Assembly: GCF_000013205.1 (NCBI RefSeq)
Contig: NC_007775.1
Coordinates: forward strand, 1,670,501 to 1,734,500
Source: Synechococcus sp. JA-3-3Ab
Lineage (GTDB): Bacteria > Cyanobacteriota > Cyanobacteriia > Thermostichales > Thermostichaceae
Reading direction: 5' to 3'
DNA: 64,000 bases
A model generated the notes under the pieces. It did not search any database. It was given only the letters and a program-made list of their open reading frames with translations, and was not told the origin of the DNA. The position numbers and the translations under genes are program-made. Every line of letters begins with the position of its first letter. Position 1 is the first letter of the stretch. Shown here piece by piece: positions 45,335 through 48,525 of this stretch.

Positions 45335-45760
45335 ATGAACCCGACAACCCAACATCGGCTCATCCTCAAAATTGTGGCCGGCTCCGCCTGGGCCGATGGG
45401 CACCTAGAGCCGCAGGAGTTGGCCTATCTGAGATCCCTGCTGCGCCGCTATGGTTTGGAGCACGATGCCGAGCTGCGAGAGCTGATCCAAGAGCCCATTC
45501 CGATGGCGCAAACGGAGCGCTGGATGGCCGATTATCTCGCCCAGGCCACCGAAACCGAGCGCCTACAACTTCTGGGGGCAATCGGCAACCTGATGATGGC
45601 CGACAACGCCGTTTCTCCGGAAGAGCACGACCTTTTGGATGACTACTACACCCTAATGGCAGGGATCCCGCCTCGCCCAGAATCGGCACCCCATCTGGTG
45701 AAGGGCGTGGGGCAGTTTTTCCGGCGCCTGGTCAAGGCTGTAAGGGGGGACATTGCTTAA
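45335..45760 (+). CDS. TerB-like domain protein
   Basis: A 141-residue all-alpha protein. AGSAWADGHLEPQELAYLRSLL and IGNLMMADNAVSPEEHDLLD show the pair of acidic, EF-hand-like motifs of TerB domains, which bind metal. The tellurite-resistance name is historical; the cellular role is unknown. The C-terminal KGVGQFFRRLVKAVRG is amphipathic and basic, perhaps membrane-associating. Confidence 0.75.
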   Translation: MNPTTQHRLILKIVAGSAWADGHLEPQELAYLRSLLRRYGLEHDAELRELIQEPIPMAQTERWMADYLAQATETERLQLLGAIGNLMMADNAVSPEEHDLLDDYYTLMAGIPPRPESAPHLVKGVGQFFRRLVKAVRGDIA

Positions 45761-45944
45761 TCAATTCTTAGCTGAAAAATAGGGTTCTCATAACCTGTAC
45801 GAGGTGCAATCTACTTCTGGAATAGACATAAGTTTGGAAAAGTTAAAAACTTGCTCTGAATTCTATAATTCTATAAAACGGCTAGATTTCATGGATAAAT
45901 AGAAGGGGCTGTGCTAGACTGAAGCCATCGCTGGGGACAGGGCT

Positions 45945-47071
45945 ATGGCTGAGCGTTATAGACAGGTAGAGCGGGTTGGGTTTGGCTCGCGGCTGGCCAG
46001 TTCTTTTGTATCAGTGTTTGTTGGATTGATTTATTTTTGGGATCGTTCTGGCTTTTGTTTTGGAATGAGGGGCGGGTCAACCTTGCCCAAGTGGCAACTG
46101 GGGCCATTGAAATCAGTCCATTGGGCTCGCCCTCTGCGCCTCTTGGAAGCTTAGTATCGCTCACAGGCCCAATTACCAGCAATGAGCTTTTGGGCGATAA
46201 TCTCTTCCTGCGGCCAGGGCCGTATATTGCCGTCAGGCGCAAGGCGGAAATGTATGCTTGGGAAGAGGAAAAAGAAACTCGCACTCAAGAGGAGTTTGGC
46301 GGATCGGAAGTCAGAGAGACAATCTATACTTACACCAAAGTCTGGACGGAAAACCCCGAAGATTCAAGCCGGTTTTATCGCAGCAGTGAGCACGTCAACC
46401 CACCGATGGCTTTTTCCAGCCAACTCTTTCGAGTCAGCCAGGCTCAAATTGGGAATTACCGAATTGGAATGCAAGATTTGCAGATCGAAACTCCCTACGC
46501 TGTTCCTCTGGAGCCCCAAACGTTGATCCCGGGGATCCCAGCTAGGGTGGAAGGCTCTTATGTTTTCAAGGGGCGGGGAACCCTGGCCAATCCACAAATT
46601 GGCGATATGCGAACTTCGTACACTGCCTTGTACAGCGGAACTCAAGTAACTGTCTTTGGTCGTTTGGCCACCCCTAACAGCCTAGAGAGCTACCTGGGGC
46701 CGCGCAGCATTCGATTTTATCGGCTATTTGCCAGCGATCGATTTGCAGCCATTGAGCGTCTTGCTGCCGAACACAATGCCCTGACTTGGATCCTGCGCTT
46801 TGTGGGATTCTTGATGATGTGGATCGGGGCCGACTCTTTCTTCGTCCCCCTTCATACGATGCTCAGCATCTTTCCTTTTCTAAGCGGCCTGGGGCGATCT
46901 ATGACGAGAGTGGTCACCTTTTTCATAGCCTTGGTTTTAATAGGGACGACTATTTTAGTCTCATCGATAGTGCATAATCCGGTGGCGCTGCTCCTCTGTT
47001 TGGGTGTGGCGGGAGTTTTCATCCTCAACGTGCTGGGGCGACGTCCCAGACGGCAAGTGGCAGGTTTTTAA
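45945..47071 (+). pseudogene. TMEM43-family membrane protein gene, frameshifted near the 5' end
   Basis: The C-terminal frame (46037-47071) encodes a TMEM43/LUMA-like protein: LLFWNEGRVN after the first helix, VSLTGPITSNELLGDNLF, then three or four C-terminal transmembrane helices. The natural N-terminus (MAERYRQVERVGFGSRLASS, then FVSVFVGLIYF) lies in a different frame starting at ATG 45945. The frames join if the T-run at 46034-46038 had six bases instead of five. Base composition is more AT-rich than in neighbours. It could be a real mutation, a sequencing error or a slippage site; otherwise translation from TTG 46037 would lack the first membrane segment. Confidence 0.7.
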
Positions 47072-47177
47072 GAGTTCCTCTGCCGGCACAGCAAAGAGCT
47101 TGCAGCGCTGCTGCATCCATTCAAATATGGCTGCTCCGAAGAGCAGCGAAATAGCTTGTCTCGATTCCTCTTACTTT

Positions 47178-47222
47178 CCCCTCACCCCCAACTTCTCTCC
47201 CGAAGGACAAAAGGAGCTGGGG
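47178..47222. repeat. Degraded copy of the dispersed repeat
   Basis: CCCCTCACCCCCAACTTCTC followed by CCCGAAGGACAAAAGGAGCTGGGG retains the order of the repeat at 43226-43261 but with several substitutions. It lies between the two disrupted genes. Confidence 0.5.
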
Positions 47223-47319
47223 ATCAAGGCAAACGGTTTCAACGCAATTTGGAGCGACCAACCTACTAATCCCCGAAGGTTAAGAGCCGCTTTGTGGCTG
47301 CCCTAGCAGATTCTTTTTC

Positions 47320-48525
47320 CTATATTGATCGTTGGCCCATGAGTTTGTACAGTTGCTCTCCGAGGATCTGGATGCCGCTGAGGATGCGCTCTTCCGGTTG
47401 GTAGCTGAAGGCGAGGCGCAGGGCGTGATCCCCTTGGCCATCAGCAAAGCAGTGGGTACCCGGCAAGAAAGTTACCCCCAGCGCTCGGGTGGCCTACAGC
47501 AAGGTGTTGGCACTCAGGGGAGGGGGCAGCTCGCACCAGATAAAGAATCCACCCCCAGGGGCCTCCACCTTGACTTCAGGGGGAAAACATTGAGCGATGG
47601 CCTCCAACATCAGGTGGCACTTTTCTCGGTAACGGCGGATCAAAAGCTGAATGTGGCTCTCTAGGCGGCCTTCCCCGCAGTATCGGGCCACCACCCGGCC
47701 CAAAAAAGGCCCCAGGGATCCCTCGCTGCGAAACATCTCCAAGCGGCGGATGATCTCGGGATGGCCACAGGCCCAGCCCACCCGCACCCCCGGCGCCACA
47801 ATCTTGGAAAAGGTGCCCACGTGCAGAACCCAGCCCTCTTTATCCAGCGCGGCCAAACTGGGCAAGGGATCCCCGACAAAGCGCAGGTCGTAGTAGGCCT
47901 CGTCCTCCACCACCACCACGCCGTATTCAGCCGCCAACTGCAGCAGCTTCTGCCGCCGCGGCCAAGAGAGGGTGCAGCCCCTAGGGTTGTGAAAGGTGGG
48001 AATGGTGTAGATAAAGCGGGGTGGGATCCCTTGGCGGGCTAGCTCGCGCAACACCTCTTCCAGGCGATCCACCACCATGCCCTCCCCATCCACCGGGATC
48101 GAGATCAGACGCGCCCCTGCCGCCGCAAAACGGCTGACCGCCCCCATGAAGGTGGGCCCCTCCACGATCACCACATCCCCCGGCTCCACAAAGACCTGGG
48201 GCAAGAGGCCAAGGATCTGCCCAGAGCCATAGCCGATCAAGAGGTTTTCCGGCTGCGCCTCCACCCCTCTGGCCCGCATCAACTGCTGCACCACCTCGAT
48301 CAACCCGGCAAAGGTGCCGCCGTAATTGAGGGCAGCATCCCCATCTTCCGCCAACACCTCCGCTGTCGCCCGCGCCAGGTCGGCCTTGGGAAACAACCGC
48401 GGATCCGCCAGGCCAAAGGTAAAACTGGTTACTACCGGCACCGCCCCAGCGATCTCCGCGCCAACAGGAGGCGGGATCACCGCCTGGGCCCGCCGGGCGA
48501 ACAGGGTCTCTAAGAGGGGCCGCAT
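47320..48525 (-). pseudogene. PLP aminotransferase (fold type I, LysN/2-aminoadipate type) with in-frame TAG
   Basis: A fold-type I aminotransferase of about 401 codons starting MRPLLETLFARRAQ. Motifs include the PLP lysine in GTFSKIVAPGVRVGWACG, YTIPTFHNPRGCTLS and EDEAYYDLRF. The frame is interrupted by TAG at 47494-47496 after SANTLL, then continues in the same frame with family-conserved sequence: ALGVTFLPGTHCF, ALRLAFSYQPEERILSG, up to a natural TAG at 47320-47322. A single C-to-T change of CAG, or GAG to TAG, would explain it. About 58 C-terminal residues, including the conserved R-L-x-F/S-Y region contacting substrate carboxylate, are lost unless the codon is read through. Confidence 0.85.

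Follow-up and report, generated by a model that had tools for sequence, protein, structure and literature searches.

The window, by which we mean the whole 64,000-nucleotide stretch of Synechococcus sp. JA-3-3Ab DNA that was analyzed, carries on its minus strand an aminotransferase class I/II gene with an in-frame stop codon. Translation of positions 47320-48525 on that strand gives 343 residues (47497..48525), a TAG (47494..47496), 57 further residues and then a second TAG (47320-47322), such that the conserved C-terminal codons and their own stop occupy 47320..47493. The coordinates and peptide strings of an earlier note on this DNA proved correct on retranslation, and its central observation, an in-frame TAG followed by conserved C-terminal sequence, was confirmed by the translation and by alignment of orthologues. 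The start site is uncertain: the ATG at 48523-48525 is usable, but in several relatives an ATG is present some codons upstream of that point.

The predicted protein matched the aminotransferase class I/II domain PF00155 with an E value of 1.2e-28. In an alignment with 16 homologues, N180, D208, Y211 and K241 were invariant, and the domain match, together with the PLP lysine (K241, 47803-47805, upstream of the internal TAG) and this conserved Asn/Asp/Tyr set, places the protein in that family. The closest solved structures are archaeal and Thermus aminotransferase II homologues of the LysN group (PDB 1x0m, 3aov and 2egy). These matched residues 32-392 of the read-through frame, including the tail behind the stop, with E values of 2e-82 to 7e-71, whereas the JA-3-3Ab gene ends at residue 343. 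The catalytic domains of the MocR-like regulators PdxR (NF052282) and YczR (NF052290) were also among the best NCBIfam matches. The NCBIfam scores were far under the curated cutoffs (for PdxR, 218 bits versus a cutoff of 320), and alignment to the MocR-like profiles started at profile position 93 or later, which implies that the JA-3-3Ab gene has no N-terminal DNA-binding domain. We therefore rejected the idea that it encodes a MocR-type transcription factor, as the aminotransferase part alone was matched and there is no N-terminal winged helix-turn-helix (HTH).

The same alignment of 16 homologues showed what the tail contains. Six residues behind the stop were invariant (G356, R370, L371, I381, G384 and G389), and a product ending at the TAG, as is typical of a pseudogene, lacks these conserved functional residues, namely, Arg370 and the five others. 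We take Arg370, the arginine of an LRL motif encoded at 47416-47418, to be the residue that binds the substrate α-carboxylate, as the corresponding arginine does in the fold type I family. The 343-residue product is probably inactive, because it lacks this carboxylate-binding arginine along with the last part of the C-terminal domain. The conservation of Arg370 and its neighbors lends support to the claim, made when the stop was first noticed, that residues completing the active site are lost.

The species is represented by one genome, and we compared the gene with its orthologues in related genomes. One of these (G001) was fragmentary, lying at a contig end and falling short of the stop position, and it was left out of the codon comparison. 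The remaining five were 92% (G004), 90% (G003), 81% (G005), 81% (G002) and 68% (G007) identical to the JA-3-3Ab protein, and none of the five had an internal stop. Read across the internal TAG, all 401 codons of the frame aligned to them without a gap at the stop, which shows that the open frame behind the TAG is not there by chance. At the position of the TAG, G004, G003 and G002 encode Gln, G005 encodes Lys and G007 encodes Thr. We also sought an orthologue that ended naturally at the stop position and found none among the five. Since all five relatives have a sense codon and read on, the comparison indicates that the full-length frame is ancestral and that the stop is derived and, among the genomes compared, private to JA-3-3Ab. 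An in-frame stop with no counterpart in the orthologues is what marks a pseudogene formed by nonsense mutation; conservation of UAG at the same place, the mark of recoding, was not seen in these relatives. A search of viral contigs for a relative of the gene found none.

To date the stop, we fitted a codon model to six sequences and set the branch leading to JA-3-3Ab against the rest of the tree. For the whole gene, dN/dS was 0.089 on the JA-3-3Ab branch versus 0.104 elsewhere (LRT p 0.6), and for the tail, with just 50 aligned codons, it was 0.045 versus 0.097 (p 0.4). Thus, the model gave no sign of relaxed selection on that branch across the gene or the tail, which is compatible with a very young stop, the test of the tail being weak at 50 codons. 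The upper 95% limit for omega on the JA-3-3Ab branch was ~0.155 (likelihood profile), and in a simple two-phase model, in which evolution becomes neutral once the stop has arisen, the omega values allow no more than ~6% of the branch to have been neutral. For the tail, an omega of 1 along the whole branch was rejected weakly (2dlnL = 4.24, again with 50 aligned codons). The tail differed from that of the nearest relative by ~4 nonsynonymous and 23 synonymous changes. Before the stop, the JA-3-3Ab genome has 13 private residues versus 4 on the sister stem, an excess that the codon model attributes to a longer branch. The stop is therefore young, or it is not real (a base error), or the tail is still translated. 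The earlier note had called the event either recent or tolerated and had listed nonsense mutation, readthrough and sequencing error as the choices; the comparison with relatives backs a recent nonsense mutation.

Taken together, these results make it likely that a recent single-codon nonsense mutation struck an aminotransferase gene that was otherwise normal and maintained by selection. The mutation would have arisen recently in the lineage or the strain, translation would stop at codon 344 to yield the 343-residue product, and the tail would still look like coding sequence because too little time has passed since then for it to decay. We infer that the deposited sequence has no error here and that the mutation arose in nature rather than in the laboratory. 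A parallel comes from hot-spring Synechococcus A strains, in which a chemotaxis receptor gene is reported to have in-frame stops (PMC4477158). Like the aminotransferase gene, that gene is interrupted by stops and yet still recognizable, in the same group of organisms; unlike it, it is a different gene, with two stops that are common to two strains. In literature on JA-3-3Ab itself, we found no mention of a nonsense mutation.

The explanation that we rank second is an error of base calling, assembly or cloning in the deposited genome, such that the gene is really intact. A single wrong base in one genome would account for everything, including why selection looks entirely normal both before and after the stop. 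Weighing against it, the genome is a single contig of 2,932,766 bases with 100% completeness, and finished genomes seldom contain errors. Moreover, the in-frame stops reported to be common to two A-lineage strains (PMC4477158) imply that real nonsense mutations occur in these populations. We consider such an error a minority possibility, well worth keeping in mind, and place the nonsense mutation, as the probable cause, ahead of it.

A further explanation is that the full-length enzyme is made because UAG is regularly decoded, whether by a suppressor tRNA, by programmed readthrough or by reassignment. Purifying selection acts on the tail along the JA-3-3Ab branch, and strong conservation of the tail is also what would be expected if readthrough still translated it; in addition, there is no close paralogue to stand in for the enzyme. 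However, the decoding machinery and the context of the stop argue otherwise, as does the plain sense codon at this position in the relatives. RF1 is present in the genome. No tRNA with a CUA anticodon was found among 43 tRNAs (RF00005 matches), a list that may be incomplete, as its lack of tRNA-Ile(GAT) and tRNA-Ala(TGC) shows that this first search can miss some genes; a separate search for the CUA pattern gave six matches, three of which were the listed Arg, Leu and Leu tRNAs, and the rest were not CUA tRNAs. Of 41 long non-overlapping frames in the window, more end in TAG (17, with the internal TAG of the aminotransferase frame counted among them) than in TGA or TAA, and TAG is also the terminal stop of the aminotransferase frame itself. 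Finally, the RNA around and behind the stop folded like shuffled sequence (z −0.09), with no sign of a stimulatory structure. Readthrough was one of the options first proposed; a dedicated system for it is left without support by RF1, the tRNAs, stop usage and RNA folding, and regular decoding of UAG seems very improbable. Slightly more doubtful again is the idea that the stop is tolerated because low-level readthrough still yields some full-length enzyme, with the stop serving as a crude reducer of dosage in this strain. Least probable of all is that the 343-residue product functions as a shortened protein or that the gene yields two complementing fragments. In favor of this, the part before the stop includes the PLP lysine and most of the fold. 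Against it, the product lacks both Arg370 and the last part of the C-terminal domain, which are invariant in homologues, and no start codon follows closely after the stop: the earliest candidate in frame is a TTG ~11 codons on.

The stop therefore appears to be an event of an ordinary kind. Most likely it reflects either recent inactivation by mutation or a sequencing error, rather than special decoding, and this gene offers no support for amber recoding in the lineage. A close second paralogue, the existence of which had been raised as a check, was not found in the genome, where the next best matches were 26-31% identical. Three of the relatives (G002, G005 and G007) have an additional, longer relative, with ~38% identity and open frames of ~500 residues, which was not seen in the JA-3-3Ab genome. 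Other aminotransferases may overlap with this one in substrate. The significance of the finding is modest: one enzyme of a hot-spring cyanobacterium, with no close paralogue, is marked as probably inactive, which bears on metabolic models and gene annotation.

The 3′ neighborhood of the gene also differs from that of its relatives. An extra segment of ~1.6 kb (45750..47338) has taken the place of the frame's extreme 3′ end; its junction lies within the last aminotransferase codons and alters the extreme C terminus. The two nearest relatives (G003 and G004) have ~25-95 bp in its place, and in them a TerB-like gene (window positions 45335-45760) closely follows the aminotransferase gene, whereas in JA-3-3Ab ~1.6 kb lies between the two. 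The segment contains a TMEM43-family gene on the plus strand (46037-47071). The other five genomes of the genus contained neither this gene nor the segment, and we found no obvious terminal repeats. Synonymous divergence behind the stop (47339-47493) was about twice that before it: compared with G004, 23 of ~37 sites had changed behind the stop versus 92 of ~264 before it (Fisher p 0.002). This increase may stem from recombination at the 3′ end with a divergent relative, and hybridization between these species has been documented (PMC12755884). Just downstream of the gene, a stretch of ~50 bp (approximately window positions 47179-47231) has two further copies in the genome, with 79-82% identity, and is perhaps a small dispersed repeat. 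Outside the window, a tmRNA and tRNA-Lys(TTT) pair occurs in two copies encoding the same tag peptide (L043 998-1574 and L044 1500-2071).
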